From a virus, in the IMG/VR virus record IMGVR_UViG_3300046167_000734, positions 1 to 35,962 of that record: DNA of 35,962 bases; one strand, given 5' to 3'. Positions 262-34,074 of the stretch are shown here, in pieces. A model generated the notes under the pieces. The model had not been told where the DNA came from, did not search any database, and saw only the letters and a list, made by a program, of their open reading frames with translations. Positions within the stretch are counted from its first letter, which is position 1. Each line of letters begins with the position of its first letter. A program made the translations under genes and the position numbers.

Positions 262-3200
262 TTATCTCTCCGTATACCCAACATTTACATCAGGTAAAAA
301 ATCTTGTCCATAGGAGTTAGCGGCATCTCTTATTGCTCCAACTACTGCTCCTTGATTGTTTGTTAATACTTCTTGTACGCTTGCTCCATCTAGTGCGTTT
401 ACATTGAAAGTTAAGTTCATATTTTTTGAACCACCTAGTTCATAATTTGGAATTACTTCATTTTCAGTTACAACTTCTGGTCCTCTTTCTCCAACTAACA
501 TTCCACCATCTGCGTATCCTTTTCTTCCCATTGCTCCACCTGGTGTAAAGTTATTAGCATTGGATCCGACTCCTTGGCTTCCTCGTAAAAATGCAGTTTC
601 TCCAGATGACATTCCTTGAGATACGTCTACTCTATTGCTTCGTTGTCCTCCAACATTTATTTCAGAAGGTGGTTTTGATGCTCCAGAAGAGTCTCCACCT
701 TGGAAAGTTGTTTTCTTAATCAAGGCAACCTGAGCTAAACCAAGAGCTGTAATTGCAGCGGCTAATGCTATTCCTAAAGGCCCTGGCATTGCTGAATAAG
801 CCATTGCTGCCGCTGTTGCAGTAGAAATAATTGCTGTTGCTATTTTGATTTTCTTGTCTTGTTCAAAAGCTTTCTTTTGGATAGCAAGTTTTTTAGCTTC
901 CATTTGTGCTATTTTTGCCAAAGATTCTTTTGATTTACCGTCCATTTTCTTTTCGGCAGAAATCATATTGTCAATTTCTTTTACACGAGATTGAGCAAAT
1001 CCTTGTTGCGCAGCTCCAAATGCTGATATAGCACTACCGACTGCTTGAGCTCCTGCTATAGCTCCTGCTACTTGTTCGTTTGAAAGACCGATTTTATCAA
1101 AAAGTGGTTCTTCTCCCATAACTGTTGTTATGTTTGCTATTGTTTCTGACATATTTGATATTTGTGTAACCATTTGAGTAAGAAACCCTATTGAAGCTCC
1201 AAATCCTTCATTTAGTTTTCCAATAGCTTCGCCCATTTGGTTAAACGCTGTTGTAGCAACTGCTGTTCTAGCGGCAACTTTATCTGTTCCTTCGTCCATT
1301 TGTGAAAAAGCTGTTATAGTTGTAAATAGATCATCACTTACTAGCCCTTTTGTAATTTCACTTTTTACTTTACTTTGTGCATTTTCTTTTCTTTTCTTGT
1401 TTAGTTTGTCTTCTGCGTCTATTACATCATTAACTCTGGCAATAGTTGCATCGTAAGCGTCTAACTCTTCTTGTGTGAAATCTTCAAAGTTAAAAGCTGC
1501 AAAAGCATCTGCTTTTATTTGTTTTTGTGTATTTAGGAACTTCTCATGTTGTTTATCAAGTAAATCTTGTTCTTCTTTAGCCAGTGCTTTCGCATTAGAT
1601 ATAGCACGTAAAGTCATTGACATTTCACTTGCTTGAGCTCCTGATAGCGCTGCTCTATATGCCATATCTGAGTCTGCAATACTTCTATTTAATTTTGCTA
1701 TTTGTTGAGTATTTTTTAAATCTTGTAAGGATAAATTTATTCTAACTTCTTCTATTGCTAATAATTCTTGAGCGGTATCTAATTGCTGATTTTTTAGTAT
1801 AGTATTTTGTGTTTCAAGACCTGTAATTTGTGCTAAAAGACCTTCATTGTCTTTTGTTTCTGCGGCTAGCTCTTTTAATACTTTTATCTGTACATTATTT
1901 GCTTCTATTTCTGCTTCACTTCTATCTTTTGTTAGTTTTAGTGTTCGTGATGCGCCTTCTACACTTAGTTTTTCAAATTGTTTTGCTACTTTTATTGCAG
2001 CATCCATTCCTTTTAAAGTTGTTTGTAAGTTAATTGCATTTTTTTGCAATTCTTTAAAAGCTTTAGATAATTCAGGAAGTCTTGTTGCTGCATTCTCTGC
2101 TGTTAAACCAAACTTTTTTGCTTGGGTTCCCATTCCTTCTAATATTTCTTCGATTTCTCCTTTATCTGTTGTATCTTTTAGTTGTCCAATTGTTTTGTCC
2201 ATTGCCTCAAAAGAAGATAGTGCATCATCAAATTTTGTTTTCTTTTCAAATGTTTGAAAGAATTTACCAAAGACTCTTTCATTGTCTGATACTTGTTTTT
2301 GTAGACTTACTAGTTCCCCATTTATTTTGTCAACTTCTTTACTTGCGCCTTTGAATAAATCTACTATTTCTTGTACGGATGCCTTCGTTCCTCCGTCTTC
2401 GTCTAAGACTATTCCTGCTTTAGTAGCAGTATCTATAATTGATTTTCTTAGAAGTTCTCCTTCTTTGCTTTGGTCTGCGAATATTTCTTTTAGATTTTCT
2501 TGGAGTCCTTGTTGTGTTTTTTGTTCAATTTTTAGTGCTGCTTTAGCTCTGTTCTCTATAAGTCTTTCATTAGTGTCTACTTCGCCTGATCCCATTGATC
2601 GAGTTTGTGAAGCTCGTAGACGCTTTTCAGTTGCTTCCTGAAGCTTTTCCATTTCTACTTTAGCATTAAGAGATTCATTGGATAGTTCTTGTAAAATACC
2701 AGATGTTACTTTAAACTTTTTAATACTTGCTTCGCCAGCTGATACGCCTGTTTTATTAATAGCATTTCTTAGTTGTTCAAACTTTTCGGGCATACTTTCT
2801 ACAATTTCCCCTAGCCCTTTTAATGCCTTAATAGGAGGATCAACCATATCTTTTACTTTTGTAAAGACAGTACTAAGTACACCAAAAGCAAATATAGCTT
2901 GACCTATAAAAGGAATCATGTTTAGTAGTGCTGATCCAAAGAATTTAATTCCTACACTTGCTAGTTTTGCATTTCTTCCTATCATTGGAAACACTGCTGC
3001 AAGTTTTCCTCCAGTTGCTGCTGAAGTATTTGCATTTTTTCTAAAGTCTTTGAATTGTTTATTGGCTTCTTTGAAACCACCAATAGGGCCTGCTTGATTA
3101 ATTGCGCTAAGACCTGTACTAGTTCTATCTGCCATGTCTACTTGAGAAGCAGCTGTATTCATTGCAGGTAAGACATCCATAGCCCCTTTATTTGCCTGTT

Positions 3201-3640
3201 GTAATTCTTTTAAAGATTGTATTTCTGCTTTAGTTACTGCTATTCTTGCTTTTGCATTCTTTTTTACTGTTTCTGTTCCTTTTCCTTGGGAAGTTTTTCT
3301 AGCGGATGTTAGTCTTTTTTCTGCATTTACTAATTCTTTTTTAATTCGTTTTTCATCAACTGACCCTTTCTTTAAGTCTTTTTGAAATTTTTTCATACTT
3401 GCTGTAGGTTTTTCAATAGCTAGTATTTGATTTCGAGAAGCCACTACACTTTCATCTGCACTTTCACTTAAAGCAGTTGCAACTGAATGTTGATGTTCTG
3501 CAGCTTCTTGTGCTCGTTGAGACATTTGTCCAAGAGCTGGAATCATTGAAGTTAAGATTGTACTTCCAAAAAGTACAAGTCCACCTATCATGGCACTTCC
3601 TGATCCTGAGAATAAGTTTGCAATAGGAATAAGTACGGTG
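262..3640 (-). CDS. Tape measure protein, C-terminal part (after apparent frameshift)
   Basis: This is the larger piece of the tail tape measure protein, which sets tail length and is ejected with DNA. The uninterrupted frame has an internal ATG at 3591, but coding clearly continues upstream to about 3640, where it joins the gene at 3641-4480 in a +1-shifted frame. Visible features are long alpha-helical, Lys/Glu/Ala-rich stretches, hydrophobic helices (around the GSALLNMIPFIGQAIFAFGV segment and an Ala/Gly-rich one near the C-terminus), and a Gly-rich C-terminal region with a GGMLVGERGPEVV motif typical of tape measure proteins. Corrected for one base, 262-4480 encodes about 1405 residues, a normal size. 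The break most likely reflects a one-base excess at the AAAA run at about 3642. Confidence 0.85.
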
Positions 3641-4480
3641 TTTTATAGCAGTAAGTCCTTCTTTTGAAAGATCAGTAAAAGCTGCTGCTAGTTTATCGTA
3701 GGGGTTGACATCAATTGCATCAGCAATATCACCATATTTTTTGGCTCCTTGCTCATTAATTGCGTTTAAAAATGCTTGTTGTCTTTGAAATTGTGTTAAC
3801 TGATTTGCACTTTTATTCAAAGTAGTTGCATAGGCTTCTGTAGCATCATCAAGACGAACCATAATACCCAATTCATCCAAAATTTCAGGTTCTAGCTTGA
3901 TAGCACCTCGTGTTAACCTATCAAGAGCGTCTCCCATGTCTCTACCAAGAGCAAGAGAAGCTCCTTTTGCAACTCGAGTTAATCCTTCCATTTCTGCAAC
4001 ACCGAAGCCCGCACTTGTTGAAAGCGCAGCTGTACGCATAGCCTGTTCTAGAGACACTGCGTTACCTGTTACTTCTTTTAATTTTTCGGCTACGAGATCA
4101 AGGGATTGACCTGTTTGATTTCCAAAAGCTGTTAAACCTTCTCCGAGTTTTTCTACTGCGGCTGCATTTCTTAATGCACTAAATGCTGCTGTTGCCGCAA
4201 AGACGTTAGCAGCTAATAAAGCATATGTAGATACTAAGGCACCAGATCCATTGGATCCTCCAATAGTCTGGTTTAATTTTGAGAAGTTTTTTGTTCCATT
4301 AGCAGTCTGGATCATGGCCTGTTGTTGACGGCCATAACCTTTATCTCTCTGCTTATCTAGATTCTTCTGTGAAGTAGTTGTCTTATCAATTTCGTTTCGA
4401 AGATTTTTTTGTTGTTTGTTAACAATATTAAAACCTTTTGCAGTTGCGACTACTTCAAATATTACCTTGTTATCTGCCAT
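3641..4480 (-). CDS. Tape measure protein, N-terminal part
   Basis: Starts MADNKVIFEVVATAKG at 4480, next to the small gene that ends at 4481. It shows the usual tape measure start: a short beta segment, then helices and a hydrophobic Ala-rich stretch (about residues 80-105, ALVSTYALLAANVFAATAAF). The reading frame formally runs on to 3464, but after about residue 280 it turns into Cys/Ser/Thr-rich nonsense (RTYSYCKLILRIRKC), while the alternative frame gives a sensible continuation (TVLIPIANLFSGSGSAMIGG). This marks the frameshift point near 3638-3645. An intron or programmed slip is less likely, because programmed frameshifts in tail operons lie in the chaperone genes upstream. Confidence 0.85.
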
Positions 4481-12868: not shown

Positions 12869-13794
12869 TTATTCTTCCTCTATTGGTGACGACTCTTCTG
12901 GTCGACCTCCCTGTTCGGGGTTAACGGCAGAGCCTGCAATATTTTGCGGGACTCTTGGATCGTCAAATCCATCTACAGGTTCTTTGCCTATTGCTTCTCT
13001 TGCTTCGTTTGGACTTATAATTCCAGTATTAACAAGTGTTGCATAATAAGCTGCTTGGTCTCTCAGTTCTGGTTGTAAAGCAGGTATTCCTGTTACATCC
13101 TCAGATAGTGAGAACCCAAAGTATCGTTCTAATGCATATCCCATCTTTCTTACGATTGGTAAGATAGTTTCAAGATAGTACAGTCTGTGATTGGGTCTTA
13201 TGTTTGCGTTATTACCACCGTCCATTAAGATGGGTGGTATTCCCATGGCTTCTAGTATGATTTTCTCATTTGCTGTTATTGAGCCTTGGAAATCTAGTTC
13301 TTTAAAATTAATATTTGTTAGGCTAGATACTTCTAATCCACCGTCAAGTATGAGAGGGCGTCTGCCTCCTGTTGTTGGATTGTATCTCATGCTCCATGCT
13401 TGTAACATTCTTTCTTTGATTTTCTCAGAAAGAGTATTTGGTGATTTAAGTACTAAACCTGGAACTGCTCCGTTTTTGAAGAAGTTATCTTGAAAACTTC
13501 TCATATTGCTAAGGAGTTGCATAGTCCTATATGCTGGTTTTAATCTTGGTGTTCCTCTATAAATGGAGTTAAAACTATTCTCTTTTATATGTATTATTTC
13601 ATTTACAGAATAGTCAATGCTGTTGTCATACACAAATTTTTCTATGTATGTGTTGTCATCAGTATAAATTGTAACTTTATTTGCTGGTAAGTGGTACATA
13701 TGAGTACCGTCAAAGTATATAAATATATTACCATCAATAAGTAGGTCAATAATTAAGTTTCTTTTAAAAGTACTAATATCCTGAAAAGGGTTAG
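12869..13794 (-). CDS. Portal protein, C-terminal part
   Basis: The open frame with an ATG at 13699 gives 276 residues, but coding continues upstream to 13794 (NPFQDISTFKRNLIIDLLIDGNIFIYFDGTH). It has HK97-type portal signatures: VNEIIHIKENSFNSIYRGTPRLKPA, FFKNGAVPGLVLKSP, MGIPPILMDGG and ISPNEAREAIGKEPVDGFD. The portal dodecamer is the vertex channel for DNA packaging. It joins the N-terminal fragment after one base of a CCC run (13794-13796) is removed, giving a 402-residue protein of normal length with the classic LLN..PNP motif at the junction. Confidence 0.88.
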
Positions 13795-14078
13795 GGTTCT
13801 ATATTTAAAAGTAAGTTAACTTTTGATTTACGAATTTGTTTTAGTATACTGTTTGTTCCAGTTATTTTATCCCCAACTGAAAAAGGGATTTCTGAAACAT
13901 CATCAACAATCATATTTACTGCTCTGTTGACGATTTCTAGTTGTTCGTATGCATTTCGATAGTTTGTAATTATTTCACGCGAGTCTACGGTTAAACCCTC
14001 GTTTCTCGAAATAACATATTGTGAAGGATTCAGCTTTTCTTCGTCGCTTCTTCCTAAAAATCTATCGTACCATGCCAT
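13795..14078 (-). CDS. Portal protein, N-terminal part
   Basis: Begins MAWYDRFLGRSDEEKLNPSQ at 14078 and includes the typical portal segment VNRAVNMIVDDVSEIPF followed by SKVNLLLNIEP. It then hits TAA at 13791-13793 because of an apparent extra C. The start overlaps the end of the HNH gene by 17 nt. The remainder is the entry at 12869. Confidence 0.85.
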
Positions 14079-14436
14079 ATTTTTGTCTCTGCTTCTCGAC
14101 CCAACGTTTTTGTTTCTCTGCTGTTATCAATTTGGGTCTTTTTCCGTATATTGAATGTAATCGTAAATGATGCTTATGGCAGAGGGTTACTGTGTACTCG
14201 TACACTTTCTCCCAATTATCATCAATAAAGGACTTTCGAAGTGCTAGTATGTCTTGCTCATTCTCTATAATATATTTTTCTTTTTTCAACCAAGTTTCTA
14301 GTAGTTCGGTCAGTCCGTAGTAATGATGAAAATCTAAGTCTATATTGCTTTCGCAAATATAACAACTACTTTGTTTCTTATATTTAGATTTAGCTTTATC
14401 TCGTACATATTTAACTAAATCTCTTTTTAATTTCAT
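14062..14436 (-). CDS. HNH endonuclease (packaging-associated)
   Basis: A 124-residue HNH nuclease: a Cys pair CYIC at residues 25-28, DLDFHHYYG (residues 33-41) with the catalytic His region, and a second zinc/HNH part TLCHKHHLRLHSIYG near residue 90. HNH proteins encoded beside terminase and portal in HK97-type phages stimulate terminase cleavage during packaging. The gene has its own sigma-70-type promoter (14456-14485) and overlaps the portal start. Confidence 0.85.
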   Translation of the reverse strand: MKLKRDLVKYVRDKAKSKYKKQSSCYICESNIDLDFHHYYGLTELLETWLKKEKYIIENEQDILALRKSFIDDNWEKVYEYTVTLCHKHHLRLHSIYGKRPKLITAEKQKRWVEKQRQKYGMVR

Positions 14437-18508: not shown

Positions 18509-20290
18509 CTATTTTCTGATGGTGTATATTTTAACTGGTTCCGACTTGCCTTTTACCGTTACTTCATCTAAGAACTCGTAGTCGTATCCGTCAACTAAAC
18601 TGTACTCAGATATGACAAGATCGACATCGTAGTTTTTACATGAGGACTCTAATCGGGCAGCTAAGTTTACAGCATCTCCTAAGACAGAGTAATCAAAACG
18701 ACTACTACTACCAAAGTTACCAACGACGCATAAGCCAGTATTAATTCCTGCTCCTGTATTAATTTGGTCAAGATTTTCTTCTTTAAGTTTTTCATTTAAT
18801 TCTCCTAGTGCCTCGCGCATCTCGAGTACACACTCTGTAGCCTTTCTTTCTTGATCATCGATGTCAAGTGGTGCGTTCCAGAAAGCCATAATACAGTCTC
18901 CCATGTATTTATCTATGGTTCCGCCATGTTTTAGTATGATTTCTGTTTGATTATCCAAAAATCGGTTGATTAATTTTGTAAGACCTTGCGGGTCTTTTTG
19001 GTATTTTTCAGAAATTGGTGTGAATCCTCGAATATCTGAAAAAAGAAAAGTGAGTCGTTTCGTCTCCCCACCCAATCTCAGCAATGTTGGGTCCTCCTGT
19101 AATTTTTTCACGAGGTCTGGAGATACATACGTCCCGAATTGTTGTTTAATTTGTAATCTCAGCAAATACTGCGTAATAAAATTACGGAAACTTTCAATAC
19201 TCCAGAATAAAAACCAGATTATGATAAGGCCTGTGACGTCAAACAAGTAAGAAGATTGAAACAAGTACCAGGCGCCGAACATTGAACCACCAATTAGTGA
19301 AAATATTACAGGCGCACTAATGTAAATGGATGAAACTGTTAAGGCAACAAGTAATAAGCCGAGTGTAAGGCCAAGTAACTCTCCTGCTGGAGCCCAACTA
19401 GGGGTAGAAGGAGCAGAACCATTAATAAGATTATGTAAAATATTTGCTTGAACTTCATGTGGGTATTTTAAACCTGCTGGTGTTGGAGTTGGGTTAACTA
19501 CACCCTCTGCTGTTACTCCAAAAATAACAAAAGGTGCATCTATTGGACTCTCTAAAAACTCTAATCCTGTTTGTTTGTAGAATTTTGTGTTCCAATCTAA
19601 AAATATTCTAGCATTTGCATCTGTTTTCATTAAAGGGTAGCTAGGAACCCTTATCCAATCAATACCTTCTTGTGTTGTTTTTAGCTGGTACGAAGGATCG
19701 TTTACTGCGAGTCTTAAGAGTTCCAAGGCGAAAGCTGGGTAAAGTTTTGACTGCACGTTTACGACTAGGGGAATGCGACGAGTAACCCCGTCTATTTCCG
19801 GCGTAGCGGTTACTAGCCCTAGCCCCTTTCTGCTTAACTCCAGAATAGACTCTGTACGTAAAATTCCTTGGTACTCGTATAGCCATGGTAATGGATCCTC
19901 CCCTAATTGGGCTGTGCCTACATGTAGGCCTTGCTCGGTTGATTGTGCCGAAGCTGCAGATGCTAATACTGTTGGTATTTTGCGCATAGCACTGCTAAAT
20001 AAAGTGTCATTTTCTTTGCCTCGAATATCTGCATCGGGCATTAAGACTGTAATTCCTGGAACTGCATTTGTTTTTTGTATTAGTTCCGCATATAAACTTC
20101 TTGGTAGTGGATATCCTTCGTAAGCTTTTACTAAGTCTTCATCCAAATCTACAATAAGTATATTTTCATTTTGTACTGGTTCAGTAGACATGATAAGAGT
20201 ATCATACCCTTTCAACTCTAAGTATTGAAATGGATATGGATTCCAAATAAATAAAGCAACTAATCCAGTTGCTGTAAGTAGTCTTATCAT
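18509..20290 (-). CDS. CHASE2-domain class III adenylate/guanylate cyclase
   Basis: A 593-residue membrane protein. An N-terminal hydrophobic segment (MIRLLTATGLVALFIWNP) is followed by an extracytoplasmic CHASE2 sensor domain (about residues 25-285; DTLIMSTEPVQNENILIVDL, then GVTRRIPLV and FVIFGVTAEGVVNPT). Then come three hydrophobic segments (about 300-370) and a cytoplasmic class III cyclase domain from about 410. Catalytic features are FSDIRGFT (metal Asp419), DKYMGD (Lys461, Asp465) and LGDAVNLAARLE (Asp539, Asn542, Arg546), so it should be active, more likely making cAMP than cGMP. Its start overlaps the FecR stop by 4 nt, implying coupled translation. Such signalling enzymes are rare in phages. 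Confidence 0.9.
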   Translation of the reverse strand: MIRLLTATGLVALFIWNPYPFQYLELKGYDTLIMSTEPVQNENILIVDLDEDLVKAYEGYPLPRSLYAELIQKTNAVPGITVLMPDADIRGKENDTLFSSAMRKIPTVLASAASAQSTEQGLHVGTAQLGEDPLPWLYEYQGILRTESILELSRKGLGLVTATPEIDGVTRRIPLVVNVQSKLYPAFALELLRLAVNDPSYQLKTTQEGIDWIRVPSYPLMKTDANARIFLDWNTKFYKQTGLEFLESPIDAPFVIFGVTAEGVVNPTPTPAGLKYPHEVQANILHNLINGSAPSTPSWAPAGELLGLTLGLLLVALTVSSIYISAPVIFSLIGGSMFGAWYLFQSSYLFDVTGLIIIWFLFWSIESFRNFITQYLLRLQIKQQFGTYVSPDLVKKLQEDPTLLRLGGETKRLTFLFSDIRGFTPISEKYQKDPQGLTKLINRFLDNQTEIILKHGGTIDKYMGDCIMAFWNAPLDIDDQERKATECVLEMREALGELNEKLKEENLDQINTGAGINTGLCVVGNFGSSSRFDYSVLGDAVNLAARLESSCKNYDVDLVISEYSLVDGYDYEFLDEVTVKGKSEPVKIYTIRK

Positions 20291-21372
20291 TGTTGCCTTA
20301 TAATTATATTAGATGTTCCGCCCTTATTAATAGTAATAAGGTACTCTTTTCCATCTTGTGAAATAGTAATATTTGTACCTGCTTGTGAGTCTACAACAAC
20401 TTTTGCAAAGTCATTTACTTGTCGTTGTACACTTACTGTTTGTGCGTCTACAATAGTAATAATCTGTGTGTTTGGATCTTGTCCAATTATTGTTCCCTCG
20501 ATCTCTGTTTTCCCAACTGCGACTGGTGCTTTCTTTTCGTTTCCTTCTCTTAGTTTGTCGAGTTCTTCTATAACTTCTAGTAAATCTTCAAAGAAGTTAA
20601 CATCTAAGAAATTAATATCGAGTTCTGTAAATTCTAAATCTTCTTCTGCTAATACATCTTCATTGAGTAGATCAATATCAAGATCATTAAAGTCTAAGAA
20701 GTCTGCTGTTTGTACATTATTAATATCTTCTTCAAATACTTCTTCTTCGGGAGGTGTAACAATCAACATATTGTCGATTAAGTCTAATGTAATATCGAGT
20801 GTTACTGGTTCTGCTGGGGCGGTTTCCCAGACGGATGTGGTGGTACTTTCATATGGTTTGTTAAGAATGACCAGTCCCGCTGCGGTCTCCACTGTAATCT
20901 CGCCAGATGATATCCCATTGATATCAGGTAAAAGAATAACCAAGCTACGACCCAACTCGTCAACAGTAACAGTAAAGTCAGTTCCTCGAATACCGATTTG
21001 AGAAGTCGGAGTTTGAATTTTAATATTTTCTTTATTAATTCCACCTATTTTTCCTGTAATAAATCTTGCAGTTCCTGAAGCAAATGTGAGTCCGATTTTA
21101 GACTTAGAAGGATCTGGGTCAAATATAACTTCGTCAAGTATAAGCTTCGAATGCTCAGTAAGACGAACAACGCTGTCATCAATAAAAGTAAGCCCCACCC
21201 GACTATTAGCAGTTCTAACGTCGTCATAAGATTCTACTCCTAATTTTAATTCAGCTGTAAGAGATTCGCCCGACCTTTTGATCTGGGCGTCTCCCTTTAA
21301 TTCGCTAATACTGCCTATATCAGCAGCTTGTAGATGTAGCGTTATCAGACTGATAAACGCAAACGTTCGCAT
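20287..21372 (-). CDS. FecR-domain periplasmic/surface protein
   Basis: I prefer ATG 21372 (MRTFAFISLITLHLQAADIG) over 21390, because it gives a clean signal peptide. Residues 20-180 form a FecR-like beta domain (ISELKGDAQIKRSGES, then VGLTFIDDSVVRLTEHSKLI, FASGTARFITGKIG and PTSQIGIRGTDFTVTV). A very acidic stretch with repeat-like LDIDLLNEDVL and LDINFLDVNFFEDLL follows (about 210-280), and a beta-rich C-terminus ending SNIIIRQQ. FecR domains are often encoded with, or fused to, CHASE2 cyclases in bacteria, so this protein and the cyclase are probably a sensing pair. The gene starts inside the end of the second curlin-like gene. Confidence 0.85.
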   Translation of the reverse strand: MRTFAFISLITLHLQAADIGSISELKGDAQIKRSGESLTAELKLGVESYDDVRTANSRVGLTFIDDSVVRLTEHSKLILDEVIFDPDPSKSKIGLTFASGTARFITGKIGGINKENIKIQTPTSQIGIRGTDFTVTVDELGRSLVILLPDINGISSGEITVETAAGLVILNKPYESTTTSVWETAPAEPVTLDITLDLIDNMLIVTPPEEEVFEEDINNVQTADFLDFNDLDIDLLNEDVLAEEDLEFTELDINFLDVNFFEDLLEVIEELDKLREGNEKKAPVAVGKTEIEGTIIGQDPNTQIITIVDAQTVSVQRQVNDFAKVVVDSQAGTNITISQDGKEYLITINKGGTSNIIIRQQ

Positions 21373-22075
21373 TTGCACTACTTGTACCACTCGTTGTCAT
21401 TTGTAAGTTTAAGTAATCGACAGCACTTGTTGACTGTTGATCAATATTATAGTTAACATAGTCTCCATCTTGGTCTAAGATAAAAGTATGCCCTGTACTA
21501 CCAGATGCATATCCGTCTGCATCGTAGTTTAATGTTCCGTTGTCTCCATTAACATCTACCTCGAAGGTAACGTTATCAGAGTCGATAGTATTAATCCAAG
21601 TATTATAATCACCAGTAATAACTGCATCATAATCTAAGTTTGCTGCGGTGTCTGTGCCTGCAACAGTAACTGTTAAATCAGAATTACTACCTGTAACCGT
21701 AACATCCATCTCACCATTATCAGAAACATTACTTCCATCTGCATCATATTGAATATCAAATTCATTGGTACTACCAGTAAATACAAATTTACCAGTGAAA
21801 GTAGAAGAATCAATATCTCCTCTAAATATGTTGTTATCCCCAATTTGGTCAATATCAATAGTCTGACTATTACCAGTTAATTTAAAGTCACTCACAGGGT
21901 TTGATCCTGAGGCTGCTTCATTACCTTCAACTTCATTTCCTGATCCAATCTGATCGATTTCAATTTGAGCGTTTGTACCGCTCTGTGTTATAAATACTTC
22001 ATTGTCAGCTGCGCTTGCAAAGATTGTAAATACTGCCATAAGTATTAATATTAGATTAGCTCCCACTAATTTCAT
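21320..22075 (-). CDS. Curlin-like secreted amyloid repeat protein (second copy)
   Basis: A 251-residue protein with a signal peptide (MKLVGANLILILMAVFTIFASA) and a mature part rich in Asp, Asn, Gly, Thr and Ser. Its curlin-type repeat motifs are VFITQSGTNAQIEIDQIGSG, then FKLTGNSQTIDIDQIGDNN, and degenerate versions with D.N.G patterns. The repeats alternate residues as in beta-solenoid amyloids. It lies directly behind csgG (20-nt overlap). The C-terminus has two Cys (ANVCVYQSDNATSTSC). Probably a CsgG-secreted amyloid or surface fibre subunit; strict CsgA versus CsgB assignment is not possible. Confidence 0.75.
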   Translation of the reverse strand: MKLVGANLILILMAVFTIFASAADNEVFITQSGTNAQIEIDQIGSGNEVEGNEAASGSNPVSDFKLTGNSQTIDIDQIGDNNIFRGDIDSSTFTGKFVFTGSTNEFDIQYDADGSNVSDNGEMDVTVTGSNSDLTVTVAGTDTAANLDYDAVITGDYNTWINTIDSDNVTFEVDVNGDNGTLNYDADGYASGSTGHTFILDQDGDYVNYNIDQQSTSAVDYLNLQMTTSGTSSANANVCVYQSDNATSTSC

Positions 22076-22916
22076 TTTCTTCCCCTATTAGTACTGTTTC
22101 CCAGTACCCTCTTTTCTCTCCTTCGTAGATTATTTCTAAAACTCCAGTCTCTAAAGCTTTTTGAAGTGCGATAGTTACGCTTTCGTTCTTCGTCACTCCA
22201 TTCTCAACTTCAACTAGTTCAGTTCCGAGTTCTATAAATCTAAACACATCCTGTGATACTCCGACCGAGAGAATGGTCTTTGTAACAAGTGTTTCCATAA
22301 GAACCTCTCCGCTACTAACAGATACAACTCTTATTGAAATAGATACGGTATCTTCACGATATTGTTTCTGTGCCCCAATACCTAAATATCTTGCTCCGAT
22401 ACCTCCTGTTTTTAAATTGGTGTCATATCCAATAACACCACCAGTAAATATTAAACCTGCAAACAATAATGGTAATACAGGTTCTTTTTCATCCAAACTA
22501 TTTCTAGTAGAACGAATTAGTTGTCTTTCTTTTGTAAGATGATCTAACCCAGCTCTTTCGACAACTTTAAAGAACTTTCCTTCTCCTGCGTGTTTTACTG
22601 CTCTTAGTAATAAACTTGCAGGATCCATTGTTACTGCTGTACTAAATAATGCAAAAGTACTATTACTCTTTCTTTGACCTGTTAAGTCTGGAAAGCTGTA
22701 TATCGCTACAACAGGTGCAGGATTACTTACTCTCTTAATATTTGTAAGTTCAGCATTATGTAAAGTACTAATTACAGCACCTTTTTCAACAGTAGTATGT
22801 CTGTTATTATTTATAAAATCTCTGACATCCTTTCCAGGAGTCAGCATACAGCTAGCCGTCAGAGTCGAGACTAAAATCGCCGAAACTACCGATTGGTATA
22901 ATGATTTCTGTAACAT
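22056..22916 (-). CDS. csgG: Curli secretion lipoprotein CsgG
   Basis: A 286-residue outer-membrane lipoprotein forming the curlin secretion pore. It has a signal peptide with a lipobox LTASC (Cys23), then the CsgG signatures VVAIYSFPDLTGQ, FSTAVTMDPASLLLRAVKHA, VIGYDTNLKTGGIGARYLGI, and VVSVSSGEVLMETLVTKTIL with VFRFIELGTELVEVE. The length is close to E. coli CsgG (277). It overlaps csgF by 65 nt and the downstream curlin-like gene by 20 nt. Intact in all segments I can compare, so probably functional. Confidence 0.93.
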   Translation of the reverse strand: MLQKSLYQSVVSAILVSTLTASCMLTPGKDVRDFINNNRHTTVEKGAVISTLHNAELTNIKRVSNPAPVVAIYSFPDLTGQRKSNSTFALFSTAVTMDPASLLLRAVKHAGEGKFFKVVERAGLDHLTKERQLIRSTRNSLDEKEPVLPLLFAGLIFTGGVIGYDTNLKTGGIGARYLGIGAQKQYREDTVSISIRVVSVSSGEVLMETLVTKTILSVGVSQDVFRFIELGTELVEVENGVTKNESVTIALQKALETGVLEIIYEGEKRGYWETVLIGEENEISGS

Positions 22917-23364
22917 TCCCTTCCTCGTCTGTAACTTTGAGTGTAACTGTCACTCCGTCGCTGCTATATTCTATTATATTTCCTTCTAGTTCTATGACAC
23001 CTGCTGCCTCTGTTCCTATTCCATCTGCGAATAGATTGTCTACCAAGTCTCTACTAAGTTGTGAGTAAATTCTTGATTCTAAGTTTTTCATAAATCTAGC
23101 AAGAGTTGTATTCTGTGCATCTCTTTCTAAATCATCAAGTGCTGCTTGCGCGGCTGCTTTAGCATCATCCTTTCTGCTTGTTTCCTGATTTTCTATAGTT
23201 AGATAGTGTGCGGAAACACCTTGTCCATTGAACGAAGGGCTTTTAAATTTATGTACCATTTCATCTGCAAATAGTAACTGGTTTAATCCAAAACCGATAA
23301 GTGCGGCTAAGACTATCCATTTGATTGCAGTTCCCATGCCACTTCCAAAATCGTCTTCTTTCAT
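22852..23364 (-). CDS. csgF: Curli assembly factor CsgF
   Basis: 170 residues; the probable start is either M1 or M10 (MGTAIKWIVLAALIGFGLNQ), giving a signal or anchor segment. The mature part has the CsgF hallmark MVHKFKSPSFNGQGVSAHYL (compare the FxNPxFGG region in E. coli CsgF that plugs the CsgG pore) and a C-terminal beta domain GVTVTLKVTDEEGNVTEIII. It is slightly longer than E. coli CsgF, with an Ala/Asp-rich helical insert. It sits immediately before csgG, as in bacterial curli operons. Confidence 0.88.
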   Translation of the reverse strand: MKEDDFGSGMGTAIKWIVLAALIGFGLNQLLFADEMVHKFKSPSFNGQGVSAHYLTIENQETSRKDDAKAAAQAALDDLERDAQNTTLARFMKNLESRIYSQLSRDLVDNLFADGIGTEAAGVIELEGNIIEYSSDGVTVTLKVTDEEGNVTEIIIPIGSFGDFSLDSDG

Positions 23365-23444
23365 GCTCCTAAATATACCTCTGCTAGTTTGCCGATAGTT
23401 CCAAAAACTATAAAATAAATTAATACTATTTTAGCATCGCTCAT
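23361..23444 (-). CDS. 27-residue membrane micro-peptide in curli cassette
   Basis: ORF from ATG 23444 (MSDAKIVLIYFIVFGTIGKL) to TGA 23361, mostly one membrane segment. Its start overlaps the stop of the curlin-like gene (TAATG) and its stop overlaps the csgF start (ATGA), a coupling pattern that supports real translation. It may help translation continue across the operon or assist membrane steps. Confidence 0.6.
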   Translation of the reverse strand: MSDAKIVLIYFIVFGTIGKLAEVYLGA

Positions 23445-24235
23445 TAGTTTCCTTGTGTTACCGATACTGAGCAACCTCCTACAGTTACACAGTTTTGTGT
23501 TAGACTATAAGATTGTGCAGTATTACTTTGTTGTGTTAAATTCAATGTTGTTGGAGAAGTGCCTGTTAGAGTAATTGTTCCTGTATGTGCTGCATACCCT
23601 GTCTGTTGTACATTTACACTATTCTCATCAGTACGTGAAGTCATTGTAAAAGTTTTAACTCCATCAGTATTCTGATTTACCCAAACTTCATTATCGTCTG
23701 CATAGATGTAAACTGTTGCGGTGTGACCACTCCATACATTTGCACTTCCATTTCTTTGTACTCCAGCAACTTTATTATCGTCTCCATGAATGTCTAAGTT
23801 GAGTTTTGATCCTCCACCTTCATCGCCGTCATGTCCAAAAGTAGTATCATCTATATCATCTAACATACCACCTTGACCCCAACGAACTGTATTATCATTT
23901 CCTAAAACATGAAAACCAACATCACTTTTTGCACAGTTAGAACCTCTTGAACAATACTGATAAAAATGAAGTGAGTTATTATTTCCGTCTAAGTCTCCAC
24001 CCCAAGTTGCTCCTGATCCCCAGTAGTCAATCCATGATACTTCATTATTACTTCCCCACTGATCAATGTCAAGTGAGTTACTCGTACCATCAATAGAAAG
24101 GTCTACTTTATTGATTGTTCCTGCAACTTGATCAATTTCCATTTGCATGTTTGCTCCTGCTTGATCAATATGTACATGGTTGTCGTCTGCTTGTAGGCTA
24201 CTTGCGATTAGTAGTATCAGTACGCTTTTTCTCAT
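23444..24235 (-). CDS. Curlin-like secreted amyloid repeat protein (first copy)
   Basis: A 263-residue protein with a short signal peptide (MRKSVLILLIASSLQA) and a mature part of repeats with D.N.v.v.Q.G-type curlin units. Examples are HVHIDQAGANMQMEIDQVAG, LDIDQWGSNNEVSW, FHVLGNDNTVRWGQGG and VNVQQTGYAAHTG; the C-terminus ends CSVSVTQGN with a Cys pair. It is rich in Trp, Asn, Gly and Asp. It is followed by csgF and csgG, which strongly supports a curlin-type substrate (CsgA/CsgB role). It starts inside the preceding 85-residue gene. Confidence 0.8.
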   Translation of the reverse strand: MRKSVLILLIASSLQADDNHVHIDQAGANMQMEIDQVAGTINKVDLSIDGTSNSLDIDQWGSNNEVSWIDYWGSGATWGGDLDGNNNSLHFYQYCSRGSNCAKSDVGFHVLGNDNTVRWGQGGMLDDIDDTTFGHDGDEGGGSKLNLDIHGDDNKVAGVQRNGSANVWSGHTATVYIYADDNEVWVNQNTDGVKTFTMTSRTDENSVNVQQTGYAAHTGTITLTGTSPTTLNLTQQSNTAQSYSLTQNCVTVGGCSVSVTQGN

Positions 24236-25001: not shown

Positions 25002-25472
25002 TTACTTTTTATCGTTGAGAAGCTTCTTCATAAGCTCCCCATAGTTTCCTTGCCCGAAAGGCATCTCGCCGCTGTTAATCTGTACATTGTTTTGTGTTTT
25101 GATTGTGGATGCTCGTGCTTTTTCTAATTCAGTTTGCGCTTTGAGTTCATCCATCCTAATCTTATGTGCCATGCCTACTAGATCAGCTAAATCTTTGCTG
25201 GTGTACACTTCACTCTCCTCTGCTTCTTCCATCTTCTTATCAATAAGTGTGTCTAAAGTTTCTGCGAGTTTAAAGCGGTTTCGATATCCAGTATCCAGGT
25301 AGACTTGATCAACGTATGCTTTAACTTCTCTTTTAGCTAAGTACTCCGATGCCTTGGCTTCATCGATTTGAAGTCTGCTACAGACAGCGGGAATACTTCC
25401 GAGTTCTAAGTAAGCATTAGCGATTTCCAGTCCTTCTGGGCTGATTCTTGTAGATATTTGATTCTTTGCCAT
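25002..25472 (-). CDS. terS: Terminase small subunit
   Basis: A 156-residue DNA-recognition subunit. An N-terminal helix-turn-helix-like region (ISPEGLEIANAYLELGSIPA, then VCSRLQIDEAKASEYLAKRE) is followed by VKAYVDQVYLDTGYRNRFKL and a helical oligomerisation region, MAHKIRMDELKAQTELEKAR, then a short tail ending GQGNYGELMKKLLNDKK. This matches small terminases of marine siphoviruses. It starts at ATG 25472, 6 nt below a perfect -10 box, so the mRNA is probably leaderless. It is unusually far from terL (9.2 kb), with cargo in between. Confidence 0.85.
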   Translation of the reverse strand: MAKNQISTRISPEGLEIANAYLELGSIPAVCSRLQIDEAKASEYLAKREVKAYVDQVYLDTGYRNRFKLAETLDTLIDKKMEEAEESEVYTSKDLADLVGMAHKIRMDELKAQTELEKARASTIKTQNNVQINSGEMPFGQGNYGELMKKLLNDKK

Positions 25473-25478
25473 ATGTGA

Positions 25479-25507
25479 ATTATAACAAAAAGTAACATCG
25501 GTGTCAA
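25479..25507 (-). promoter_or_regulatory. Perfect sigma-70 promoter giving leaderless terS mRNA
   Basis: On the minus strand TTGACA (25502-25507), 17 bp, TATAAT (25479-25484). Only 6 nt separate the -10 box from the terS ATG, so transcription would start at or beside the A of the ATG. The promoter sits 3' of the TBDR terminator and would also drive the curli/FecR/cyclase cassette. Confidence 0.85.
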
Positions 25508-25541
25508 GTTATATTTTTGTGTGGGGTAAGAAAATGTGGGT

Positions 25542-25571
25542 AAAAAGAAAGAGGGGACCGAAGCCCCCTCT
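25542..25571 (-). terminator. Rho-independent terminator of the TBDR gene
   Basis: Stem AGAGGGGGC / GTCCCCTCT (9 bp, one G-T pair) with a TTCG loop, read on the minus strand, followed by TTCTTTTT. It lies 12 nt past the TBDR stop (25583) and separates that gene from terS, whose promoter lies 35 nt further on. Confidence 0.9.
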
Positions 25572-25582
25572 TAGGAAGTGCA

Positions 25583-28500
25583 TTAGAATTGGTATTTGAA
25601 TCCTAATTGTATGCGGTATAAACTTCTATAATAGTTTGTGCTTTCATTATGAATTTTATCTAAACTCATTCTGTAAGCTGGTTTATACTCATAAGTGAAG
25701 TTGCCGTCACCTAATGAAACTGGTACGGCCTCTGCGATTGATCTGTCGGAACTAGAAGCTTTTGTTTGTCTTCCATATTCACTGTCGATCAAGTTAAGTA
25801 AATTTTCAACGTCAAGTGTTAAAACAAACTTGTCGTTGTCTGTGAGTCCAAGTCCTGGGAATTCTTGAGTTAGTTTAAAATCAAGTCTATAATTCCAGTC
25901 TGTCTCGAATCCATTAATCGGTGCAAACCCACCTGCATAGCCAGATAGTCCAGCTGCTGCAATGTATGAGTCAAGATCGCTTTGGAAGTATGAAGGGACA
26001 ACTACGTCTCCATTCGGTACATAAAAAGCGGCTGTTGCATCACGAGTTGATTCTTTGTCCAGTCCCCATAGAGCTCCATCTTTGTAGTTTCCAAAAGTAT
26101 AAGAGAAAGGTTCTCCACTTATAGCGGCTCCTACGAAGGTGAATGTTGTTGGGTGATTGTCAAAGAAGTATTTTGTATAGTTTGCTACAAAATTAAAAGT
26201 ATGCTCTCTTGAATAAATTGATCTGTGTAATACATCTTCATTAAAGTTTGCATATTTTGTTGTATATTTAAAGTTTGAGATATTTCTTGAAGAAGAAAGA
26301 TTACCAACTGTTTGAACATCTTGCCATGTATATGAAGCATAGATATCCCAGCTGTCCCAAGCCTTTGCCATAGAAAGACTAACTAGGTCTGAATGACCTT
26401 TATCTGTGTTAGTAAGAAGCATATCATAACCTCTACCATCATAGAATTTCTCCATAGCTTTACCACAGTATGAGTAGTCAGCATAAATAAGTCTGCCGTC
26501 TACAGCTGTACCGATTGGCATGTTAGAAACGCTGTTGCCAATTTCTGGGCAATCAACTGATCCAGCAAATGCAGGATTTCCTAATCTTAGTTGCTTGAAG
26601 TGTAGGTCTGTGTCAGTTTCTGTTTTTAAGTAATCAGCACTGAAGTACCAGCCATCTCCAAGTTCCCAATCCATTCCAATTGACATCTTCATATCTTTTG
26701 GTAATTCAAAGTTAGGATCTAGCATGTCAGCGTATGCTGGTCTGAATCCTGGTTGACCTGGTTGGTAAATGTAAGAATCAAATGGTGTTGTATCAAATCC
26801 ATTAAAGTTTGCTGCTGCACTCAAAGGTACACTTGCATTTTGAATTCCGATTCCATCATTTGAGAAAGTTCCGCCCATCCATACATTTGGTCTGCCACCA
26901 GTGAAGTAACCTAAGCCACCTCGAATAGTAACATCTTTCATCATTCCCATATCACCTTGTTCATATGTGAATCCAAATCTTGGTAGTACAATATCTTTGC
27001 CGTCTAAGCTAGTATCGTTACGAATACCATGATTATCAAATAATGCTGGGTTATACAATGGAGTTTCATCCATTGAGTATTCTTCCATTCTTACACCAAA
27101 CTGTAATGTGAGTCTGTCGCTGTAATCCCATGTGTCTTGAATGTAGTAACTTGTAGTTTCTATTTCAAAAGCTGCTGAACCATCAGCGGGGTTACCAGAA
27201 GGTGAGTTCCTATAGTCAATGCTATATGGAGTTTTGTTTTCAAAGTCTGAAGCACTTGCAAAAAGCAATTCAGCATCTGAGTATGCAACAAATCCATTTG
27301 CGACATCAACCATATTTTTATGAATACCTGCAACTAGTTCATGTGAACCAAGTAGGTAAGACATTTCGAATTCAAATTCGCTTGTGTCTGTTTGTAGAGA
27401 ATTATAGTGTCTGAATACATCAGGTCCCATAATAATCTGTGGACCTCTATCGCCCTCTCCTAACTCAACGACTGCTCTCATGAAATCATCTCCACCGACA
27501 CTTGCTTGCGCAGTATCAACAGTTCTCATTCCATATCTCATAGTAGTTGAAAAACTGTCAGTCCAATCGCTAAAGATTTGGAAACTGTCAGATTGTAGTT
27601 CTGTGGTTTTTGTGTAATTACCACTTGTAAGTGCTAGTACATTTTCTGATCCGCCATATTCTCTTACATCATTGTTATCTGATGTTTGATGTGTATATGT
27701 CATACGTTGGCTATCATTCATGTTCCAGTCAAGTTTAATAAGAAGATCTTCATCAAGTAACTCATTATTCATACCAGAAGCAGAACCTGCATCATAGTTA
27801 TAAACAGATTGTGCTAAGTCAATGATTTCAGTAGCTTGTGCTAATGATACACCTTCGACTTCTCTAAGTGCACCTGAGCCTGCTGCTCCCCATACACCTG
27901 GTTCGGTTTTCTCAAACTTATCGTAGTTAATAAAGAAGAATAGTTTATCAGCTATAACGGGTCCTCCGAAAGTATACCCTATTGTTTCTTCATCAAATTC
28001 TCCAATAGTTACAGATTGATCTTCGATTTGATCTCCGACCCAACTGTCTCCCATTTGAAAACCATATACGCTACCTGCGAATTCATTAGTACCTGATTTA
28101 GTTACAACATTAACATTACCTGCTGTTGAACCTGAATCTCTTACATCGAAGTCTACTACACTTACATTTACTTGCTCTACAGAGTCAAGTGAAATAGGTG
28201 AGCGAACTCCAGGATATCCACCATATTCAAGACCGAAGTCATCTGATTGGCCAATACCATCAACACTAAAAGAACTATACCTGGCATTTGCACCAGCGAT
28301 AGAAATACTTTCTGTGTCATCTCCATTGAAGCTAATGCTGTAAACATTAACAAATGGTTGTGTTGCGACAGCATCTTTAAGATCTCTCTTAACTGATGCA
28401 ATCTTTCCGATCTGATCGGAAGTTAAAGTACTCTTTGGGCCTGTAATAAGACCTGAAGTATTTAACTTTTGTGCAGTCACTACAACTTCTTCTTCAACCG

Positions 28501-28831
28501 TTCTTCCAACAATAAATCTAATCTTGTCAGTTTCTCCGAGTTCTAAAAATACGTTGTCACGAGTTGCGTTTCCTCCAGTGGATGTAACTATCACAGTATA
28601 AGGACCACCAACACGCAAATTACGTGCTAGAAAGATACCTTCGCTGTTTGTTACTTGGGAGGAGGCTGAGCCAGATGGCTCGTGGATTACGGAGACTGAA
28701 GCTCCTGAGATGGCGTTACCAGTTGAACTTAGCACAGTTCCTCTGATTGCCGAAGTGGTTTCTTGGGCAAATGCTGGAATCGCTAGAAAGACGAAAGCAG
28801 ATAACCCAAGGAATAGATTTCTAAAAACCAT
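25583..28831 (-). CDS. Oar-like TonB-dependent outer membrane receptor
   Basis: 1082 residues. It has a Sec signal peptide (cleavage after AIPAFA, residue 22) and a carboxypeptidase-regulatory-like beta domain (about 24-105; TTSAIRGTVLSSTGNAISGA). Next is a hinge EEEVVVTAQKLNT, then a plug domain (about 125-250; LTSDQIGKIASVKRDLKDAV, DGIGQSDDFGLE, VNVVTKSGTNEFAGS) and a long beta-barrel ending in Phe (YRIQLGFKYQF), as required for BAM insertion. This is the Oar/CarboxypepD-TBDR type common in gammaproteobacteria. It may import substrates, replace a host receptor, or block superinfection. It has its own promoter, leader and terminator and appears complete. Very unusual in a phage genome. Confidence 0.92.
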   Translation of the reverse strand: MVFRNLFLGLSAFVFLAIPAFAQETTSAIRGTVLSSTGNAISGASVSVIHEPSGSASSQVTNSEGIFLARNLRVGGPYTVIVTSTGGNATRDNVFLELGETDKIRFIVGRTVEEEVVVTAQKLNTSGLITGPKSTLTSDQIGKIASVKRDLKDAVATQPFVNVYSISFNGDDTESISIAGANARYSSFSVDGIGQSDDFGLEYGGYPGVRSPISLDSVEQVNVSVVDFDVRDSGSTAGNVNVVTKSGTNEFAGSVYGFQMGDSWVGDQIEDQSVTIGEFDEETIGYTFGGPVIADKLFFFINYDKFEKTEPGVWGAAGSGALREVEGVSLAQATEIIDLAQSVYNYDAGSASGMNNELLDEDLLIKLDWNMNDSQRMTYTHQTSDNNDVREYGGSENVLALTSGNYTKTTELQSDSFQIFSDWTDSFSTTMRYGMRTVDTAQASVGGDDFMRAVVELGEGDRGPQIIMGPDVFRHYNSLQTDTSEFEFEMSYLLGSHELVAGIHKNMVDVANGFVAYSDAELLFASASDFENKTPYSIDYRNSPSGNPADGSAAFEIETTSYYIQDTWDYSDRLTLQFGVRMEEYSMDETPLYNPALFDNHGIRNDTSLDGKDIVLPRFGFTYEQGDMGMMKDVTIRGGLGYFTGGRPNVWMGGTFSNDGIGIQNASVPLSAAANFNGFDTTPFDSYIYQPGQPGFRPAYADMLDPNFELPKDMKMSIGMDWELGDGWYFSADYLKTETDTDLHFKQLRLGNPAFAGSVDCPEIGNSVSNMPIGTAVDGRLIYADYSYCGKAMEKFYDGRGYDMLLTNTDKGHSDLVSLSMAKAWDSWDIYASYTWQDVQTVGNLSSSRNISNFKYTTKYANFNEDVLHRSIYSREHTFNFVANYTKYFFDNHPTTFTFVGAAISGEPFSYTFGNYKDGALWGLDKESTRDATAAFYVPNGDVVVPSYFQSDLDSYIAAAGLSGYAGGFAPINGFETDWNYRLDFKLTQEFPGLGLTDNDKFVLTLDVENLLNLIDSEYGRQTKASSSDRSIAEAVPVSLGDGNFTYEYKPAYRMSLDKIHNESTNYYRSLYRIQLGFKYQF

Positions 28832-28879
28832 ATTTTACTCCTTATTACTTATTGTTGTTAACAATAGTTTATTGAAAGC

Positions 28880-28896
28880 GTAGGAAGATTTCCTAC
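28880..28896 (-). promoter_or_regulatory. Palindrome just past TBDR transcription start (operator-like)
   Basis: GTAGGAA-GAT-TTCCTAC, a perfect 7-bp inverted repeat, lies within about 5-20 nt of the predicted TBDR start. It could be an operator for a repressor or a 5' RNA stem protecting the mRNA. Confidence 0.55.
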
Positions 28897-28906
28897 ATAT
28901 GCGTGT

Positions 28907-28935
28907 ATTATAACAAATTTCACCAAGAATGTCAA
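28907..28935 (-). promoter_or_regulatory. Perfect sigma-70 promoter of TBDR
   Basis: Minus-strand TTGACA (28930-28935), 17 bp, TATAAT (28907-28912). It gives a leader of about 70 nt that contains the palindrome at 28880-28896 and an AAGGAGT Shine-Dalgarno site before the ATG at 28831. Confidence 0.88.
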
Positions 28936-29015
28936 GATATATTTTCGAATGCATCGTCACGATGTTCTGTGTGCGTCTTTTATTACTTTTCAAAAAATCC
29001 CAAAGTTGTACGTGT

Positions 29016-29065
29016 GGGGGAGCCCGGCGGGTCAGCCGATGTCAAGTCAACTAACCGCCCCCCTC
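29016..29065. repeat. GC-rich element A after minus-strand unit
   Basis: A GC-rich island directly behind the 84-residue gene. GGCGG (29026-29030) can pair with CCGCC (29055-29059). It contains GGCGGGTCAGCCG, related to the 19-bp repeat shared by elements C and D. Probably a terminator or boundary for the unit; the rest of 28936-29015 has no gene. Confidence 0.45.
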
Positions 29066-33714: not shown

Positions 33715-34074
33715 ATGAAAACAATTAAACAAATTTACAACAAACTATTTAACAAACAGGAGAACATAATGGCACAAGCTAATTATACAGAACAAATGAC
33801 CTCAAAAATGGTCGCAACTTACACAGCTAATCCTACAAGAGAAACAGTAGACGCACTAGCTAAAGAATTAGGCAAGAACACAAGATCCGTAATTGCCAAG
33901 CTTTCAAGAGAAGGCGTGTACAAAGCACAACCAAGAACAACTAAGACTGGTGAGCCAATAGTACGCAAAGCAGAACTCTTACAAGCTATCGAGACACACT
34001 ATGGCATAGAGCTTCCTTCCCTAGTGAAAGCCAGCAAGGCTGACCTCCAAAGATTGATTGACACAATCAGCTAA
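33715..34074 (+). CDS. Putative HTH DNA-binding protein
   Basis: The longest form (ATG 33715, near-leaderless) starts MKTIKQIYNKLFNKQENIMA. A better SD-supported start is ATG 33769 (MAQANYTEQMTSKMVATYTA) with CAGGAG upstream. The core TRETVDALAKELGKNTRSVI followed by AKLSREGVYK looks like a helix-turn-helix. A C-terminal helical domain IELPSLVKASKADLQRLIDT follows. Similar short regulators appear in marine phages as I remember. Followed by a terminator (34089-34113). It may regulate the neighbouring ncRNA or early genes. Confidence 0.65.
   Translation: MKTIKQIYNKLFNKQENIMAQANYTEQMTSKMVATYTANPTRETVDALAKELGKNTRSVIAKLSREGVYKAQPRTTKTGEPIVRKAELLQAIETHYGIELPSLVKASKADLQRLIDTIS

Follow-up and report, generated by a model that had tools for sequence, protein, structure and literature searches.

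The window, by which we mean the whole stretch of viral DNA analysed (35,962 nucleotides; positions 1 to 35,962 of IMG/VR virus record IMGVR_UViG_3300046167_000734), carries on its minus strand an open reading frame (ORF; 25583..28831) that encodes a TonB-dependent receptor (TBDR) of 1082 amino acids and has no internal stops. The protein contains the Pfam domains CarboxypepD_reg (residues 29-106, 1.4e-14), Plug (130-223, 1.4e-5) and OMP_b-brl_4 (360-1014, 7.4e-29), the last two scoring above the Pfam cut-offs, and NCBIfam returned one sub-threshold match only, which was disregarded. The signal peptide, the TonB box and the C-terminal Phe were assigned by inspection: the signal peptide reads MVFRNLFLGLSAFVFLAIPAFA with cleavage before QE, a TonB-box-like (V)EEEVVVTAQ lies at about residues 112-120, ahead of the plug, and the barrel ends in ..QLGFKYQF. 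A first-pass annotation, made from the sequence alone, had described a complete, Oar-like receptor with signal peptide, plug, barrel and C-terminal Phe, and each of these parts, as well as the three-domain make-up, was found. The structure prediction that it called for gave an AlphaFold model of low confidence (predicted local distance difference test, pLDDT, 53; predicted template modelling score, pTM, 0.55), yet the top PDB matches listed for this model are all TonB-dependent transporters, with YddB/PqqU first (E 3.5e-19) and the FhuA-Llp structure 8a60 also among them; a search of the sequence itself against solved structures returned no match. Domain make-up, TonB box, signal sequence and C-terminal aromatic residue confirm the gene as a TonB-dependent receptor, with ligand transport itself being predicted.

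The virus is T5-like, as judged from its large terminase subunit (TerL, 48% identity to T5-like phages), its major head protein (36% to the T5 type) and a weak match to a D5-like regulator; tape measure, portal and adaptor families were matched in PHROGs. Directly beyond the receptor, on the same strand, lies the terminase small subunit (TerS; 25002..25472, phrog_3802, 3e-36), the first gene of an operon for packaging, curli and structural proteins, and a search with this small terminase gave 58 loci of the same phage family.

The receptor gene is framed by its own signals, all on the minus strand. A sigma-70 consensus promoter, TTGACA-N17-TATAAT, matches at 12 of 12 positions (28907..28935) and is kept in the related contigs L003, L004 and L008. 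The 5' leader (28832..28900) holds the ribosome-binding site AAGGAG, 6-7 nt ahead of the ATG, and a short hairpin, GTAGGAA..TTCCTAC, which recurs at the same position in three T5-like copies, although a shuffle z of about -2.4 for each makes this weak evidence. Transcription would end at an intrinsic terminator with a TTCG loop, AAGAGGGGGCTTCGGTCCCCTCTT followed by TCTTTTT (25549..25572), which is near-identical in L003, L004 and L008. The perfect promoter and the strong terminator (25572-25549) claimed in the first pass are thus both present, but the promoter is not special to the receptor: it is one of ten perfect 12/12 promoters between 16.5 and 36 kb of the window. Because of these ten, we regard it as the ordinary promoter class of this phage and as no mark of independence, and we reject the consensus promoter as proof of autonomy.

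Above the promoter lies a phage regulatory region (28940..29012, minus strand) made up of a box, CACGTACAACTTT..TTTTGAAAA..AAAAGACGC, and an operator-like palindrome, CATCGTGACGATG (28952-28964). This region is homologous to the stretch directly upstream of TerS in relatives that lack the TBDR. In such cargo-free relatives the order ahead of TerS is box (CACGTACAACTTT...TTTTGAAAA...AAAGACGC), palindrome (GCATCATAATGATGC, about -62 to -74) and consensus promoter, while in the window, L003/L004 and L008 the whole region of box, palindrome and promoter precedes the TBDR, and TerS is left with a short core promoter, a second consensus promoter (25479..25507, minus strand) that repeats the core of the first. 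A palindrome, GCATCATAATGATGC or GTATCATAATGATAC, with the box about 45 bp further up, stands before the first operon gene in most relatives (L028-L062). The conserved palindrome and box are likely a binding site for a phage regulator, judging by their position and recurrence. The window also encodes a small protein (33715-34074, plus strand) that is conserved in many relatives and weakly matches the T5 D5-like transcriptional regulator (phrog_323, 6e-6); its product is a candidate binder of the palindrome.

The nearest relative, L028, is 98.7% identical over 7.9 kb and lacks the TBDR, and its junction defines the empty site: the equivalent of window position 25523, just before the TerS promoter, is joined to the homologue of window 28896-29060, which comprises the TBDR promoter and the sequence upstream of it. 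Since the second promoter has the same core as the TBDR promoter, homologous promoter sequence lies at both borders of the cassette. The TBDR is present in four T5-like contigs of the family and was not seen in the rest; 16 relatives, including L028, lack it anywhere in the contig, which, the contigs being fragments, is not proof for each virus. In seven loci (L035, L036, L039, L041, L048, L054 and L061) the slot upstream of TerS is occupied by the gene for a C5 cytosine DNA methylase, by that for a PAPS-reductase-like protein, or by both, and this alternative cargo likewise lies behind a palindrome or box. The TBDR thus belongs to a set of cargo genes that replace one another at the front of the packaging/curli/structural operon.

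These findings bear on the earlier proposal of an autonomous "moron" expressed independently of the lytic programme. The first half of it holds, in that the receptor has its own promoter and terminator, is absent from close relatives, and is a mobile cassette with a start and a stop of its own, present in one phage and missing from another that is nearly identical. The second half finds no support in the sequence: a phage operator stands in front of the gene, the promoter belongs to a class shared with nine others, and the same operator, box and promoter appear to drive the terminase and structural operon in cargo-free relatives.

Homologues of the receptor with 69-78% identity occur in eight other viral contigs. 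Three of them (L003, L004 and L008) belong to the T5-like family and have the gene order of the window, with the TBDR directly before TerS; L003 and L004 are near-copies (99.8% identical). The other five (L002, L005, L006, L007 and L009) are contigs of T4-like myophages, assigned on the basis of clamp loader, Rz-like spanins, tail lysozyme and fibre genes, and their copies are 69-72% identical to that of the window. In these marine T4-like phages DnaJ-like and ClpA-like genes lie directly downstream of the TBDR. Upstream of three of the T4-like copies we found the T4-late-promoter-like site TATAAATA; since most other genes of those contigs lack it, we take it as no more than a weak hint of late expression.

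All nine phage copies have an unbroken reading frame and intact domains, signal peptide, TonB box (pattern [DE][DE]xVVV) and C-terminal Phe, and the ratio of nonsynonymous to synonymous substitution rates (dN/dS) between copies, leaving out the near-identical pair L003/L004, is 0.09-0.16, which indicates purifying selection. Disrupted frames in the related phages and assembly chimerism at the borders of the gene had been named beforehand as outcomes that would count against the receptor. With no frame broken in nine copies and with dN/dS at this level, a pseudogene or a gene in decay is ruled out, and chimerism is excluded by four contigs with identical junctions together with the empty-site contig L028.

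When bacterial relatives are included in the trees, all nine phage TBDRs fall together in a single clade (100% support), whose stem measures about 1.1 changes per site. Inside it, the T5-like copies of L003/L004 group with four T4-like copies (100/98), apart from those of the window and L008, and approximately unbiased (AU) tests reject monophyly of the T5-like copies (p 1.3e-5) and likewise of the T4-like copies (p 1.2e-4). The trees indicate that the receptor gene is exchanged between T5-like and T4-like phages, and because the copies are interleaved in this way, it would seem to be worth keeping for phages that are unrelated to each other. In L003 a T5-like leader, start (MVF) and terminator surround a gene body that is nearer to the T4-like copies (80% vs 71%), which suggests replacement of the gene body inside the cassette.

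The search for a cellular donor, likewise proposed at the outset, did not lead to a close one. Among 369 + 203 + 148 + 149 gammaproteobacterial and Bacteroidota-class genomes and in a peptide scan of genome contigs, samples that are not exhaustive, the closest cellular TBDR is at most 36% identical, and recent capture from a host is not supported in the genomes searched. The bacterial kin belong mainly to a family with large genomes and to an order with genomes of 0.7-1.7 Mb that, we infer, resembles SAR86 in size and in its richness in TBDRs.

We clustered the neighbours of the bacterial TBDRs without prior choice of genes and named the clusters by Pfam. The recurrent ones are the NupC nucleoside transporter, Exo_endo_phos, 2OG-Fe(II) oxygenase, alkaline phosphatase, thymidine kinase, pyrimidine nucleoside phosphorylase, cytidine deaminase and uridine kinase. 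Of 47 bacterial relatives, 36 have one or more genes of nucleoside transport or salvage in their 17-kb neighbourhood (for the small-genome order 9/9 and 5/5, for the other family 14/25 and 8/8), as against none of 20 regions picked at random from ten of these genomes (Fisher p 1.5e-9, a value to be read with the reservation that related loci are not independent and that the marker genes were drawn from the tested neighbourhoods); among more distant TBDRs the count is 4/10. Two separate bacterial groups show the linkage, each with different gene partners. In the small-genome sister clade NupC is present at 9/9 loci, with no match to Exo_endo_phos or alkaline phosphatase, and in the larger family, with 33 loci, alkaline phosphatase occurs at 15 and an Exo_endo_phos protein at 22. 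A PhoB-like regulator lies near two relatives and PhoD near one small-genome relative. The NupC-linked small-genome clade is the sister group of the phage clade, and other linked clades branch off outside the two (support 81-92 at the relevant forks). The phage clade appears to nest inside a nucleoside-linked family of bacterial receptors, a placement that the long stem makes less than certain. Around the phage TBDRs themselves no nucleoside uptake or salvage gene was identified, as expected for a phage.

Elsewhere in the window (18509-24235, minus strand) lies a curli (type VIII secretion) cassette with CsgF, CsgG, two curlin-like repeat proteins, FecR and a CHASE2 adenylate cyclase, which is also found in most relatives of the T5-like family. 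The portal gene is seemingly split (12869-14436, minus strand) into ORFs at 12869-13699 and 13791-14078, with an HNH-like ORF at 14062-14436, possibly through a frameshift, an insertion or an assembly error. The tape-measure region consists of two overlapping ORFs in different frames (3464-4480 and 262-3591, minus strand), which may reflect a frameshift or a sequencing error. No tRNAs were found from which a host could be guessed.

We propose, at roughly even chances, that the TBDR of this marine T5-like phage serves the TonB-dependent uptake of nucleosides, nucleotides or nucleic-acid fragments and is carried as exchangeable cargo. On infection, the gene would be transcribed from the phage sigma-70 promoter behind the conserved operator, with transcription ending at its own terminator; the protein would be exported by its signal peptide, inserted in the outer membrane of the host, and would engage the host TonB-ExbB-ExbD system via its TonB box to pull the ligand in. 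The ligand is most likely to be nucleosides, nucleotides or short nucleic-acid fragments, because the bacterial family adjoins NupC, extracellular nuclease and phosphatases, and enzymes of nucleoside salvage, and the imported material would feed phage DNA synthesis in nutrient-poor water. The first-pass suggestion that such a receptor could feed the infected cell gains specific support from this linkage. The wider claim, that unrelated phage groups share a virus-resident receptor lineage which gives infected cells TonB-driven uptake of these compounds, so that phage DNA is made partly from the debris of other lysed cells, is more tentative and falls somewhat short of an even chance.

Several observations weigh against a role in nucleoside uptake. 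The TBDR heads a late-type operon, and the site TATAAATA hints weakly in the same direction; late synthesis would leave little time for feeding. The phage receptors are only 31-36% identical to their bacterial kin and sit on a stem of about 1.1 changes per site, over which the substrate may have changed, and the branches that unite as sisters here, theirs and that of the small-genome clade, are both long. Four relatives that are among the nearest in the large-genome family by score (L117, L118, L122 and L123) have none of the listed nucleoside genes nearby, and the structural model (pLDDT 53) is too poor for mapping loops or a ligand site.

The main rival to nucleoside uptake is superinfection exclusion or receptor remodelling, which takes up the two other first-pass suggestions, competitor exclusion and altered receptor display. 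Here the phage TBDR would displace host TBDRs, vie with them for TonB or for places in the outer membrane, or serve as a decoy, and TBDR-dependent competitors would adsorb or inject poorly. TBDRs such as FhuA are used by phages of the T5 type, which keep rivals out by means of the lipoprotein Llp, and the C5 DNA methylase and PAPS-reductase-like protein found in the same slot could be DNA-modification genes, in which case the slot may hold genes for interaction with hosts or competitors. We nevertheless consider exclusion unlikely: TonB box, plug and barrel are all kept under strong purifying selection, beyond the needs of a passive decoy, the family is linked to nucleoside uptake, and a displayed receptor could itself cause loss of progeny. 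Slightly less probable again is a general nutrient or phosphorus receptor that imports an organophosphate or another compound rather than nucleosides as such. The alkaline phosphatase and Exo_endo_phos genes of the larger family, and the PhoB-like and PhoD genes near a few relatives, would fit such a receptor, but NupC and the salvage enzymes are equally common, phosphatases are expected for nucleotide use anyway, and the sister clade has NupC throughout without either of the two phosphatase-type matches.

That the gene is a selfish passenger, which persists because its promoter-terminator cassette is prone to recombination and which brings the phage little benefit, would agree with its presence in only four T5-like contigs and with the repeated promoter cores that bound the cassette, as in what is described of the PeSL cassettes of T4-type phages. 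With protein sequences more than 20% apart between copies, a dN/dS of about 0.1 requires selection for function, and makes this improbable. Least probable is a channel for secretion or surface display that works with the phage curli cassette, by analogy with the Oar-type transporter, which is needed for protein secretion in Myxococcus. The curli cassette does lie 1.3 kb further along on the same strand, and the domain make-up of the receptor is Oar-like, but the majority of relatives possess the curli genes and lack the TBDR, and none of the ORFs listed near the receptor gene of the T4-like contigs was seen to be a curli gene.

If nucleoside uptake is the correct reading, marine phages remodel the outer membrane of their infected hosts so as to bring in the building blocks of nucleic acids. 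The nutrient genes known from phages work for the most part within the cell or at its inner membrane; this one would provide a complete, energised receptor in the outer membrane, which selection has maintained in two unrelated groups of phages and whose ancestry links it to nucleoside scavenging. Its kinship with the bacterial family is seen in the tree, and we class it as an auxiliary cargo gene of unusual type. The vague question of what phage TBDRs are for becomes a direct uptake assay with a named class of substrates. Such genes are exchanged through a defined slot with its operator, and this cargo site is worth mining.

A tblastn search of the TBDR against records of isolate phages gave only one match, at 26%, in a 6-kb faecal record. 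In the open-access literature we found neither this receptor lineage, nor its transfer between T5-like and T4-like phages, nor the nucleoside link reported, and the only report of a phage-encoded TBDR that we found there concerns the marine megaphage Mar_Mega_1, which encodes a putative SusC-type receptor proposed to raise uptake during infection (PMC9723777). Both receptors are phage-encoded, but that of Mar_Mega_1 is annotated as SusC and comes from a megaphage, and the two are set side by side by description only. The cassette resembles the PeSL promoter-terminator cassettes of T4-type phages, as summarised from Arbiol 2010 and Comeau 2014 in PMC4503421, in that an accessory gene lies between a terminator and a repeated promoter that offers possible crossover homology; unlike them, to go by that summary, it sits in a T5-like family and has an added operator region. 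The curli genes of the window follow the arrangement reported for the type VIII secretion cassette of pelagiphages (PMC9599517, PMC7029224, PMC9004378), with CsgF, CsgG, curlin-like proteins, FecR and cyclase, but lie in a T5-like family and are separate from the TBDR. With the Oar-like TBDR family of Gammaproteobacteria the phage receptors share the CarboxypepD_reg, Plug and OMP_b-brl_4 make-up, the same length and 31-36% identity over nearly the full length, but they form a long-stemmed clade of their own and have no nucleoside genes as neighbours. Like superinfection exclusion by FhuA and Llp in T5, the present case brings together a T5-type phage and the biology of TBDRs; however, T5 uses a TBDR of its host and encodes the blocker, whereas here the phage encodes the TBDR itself.

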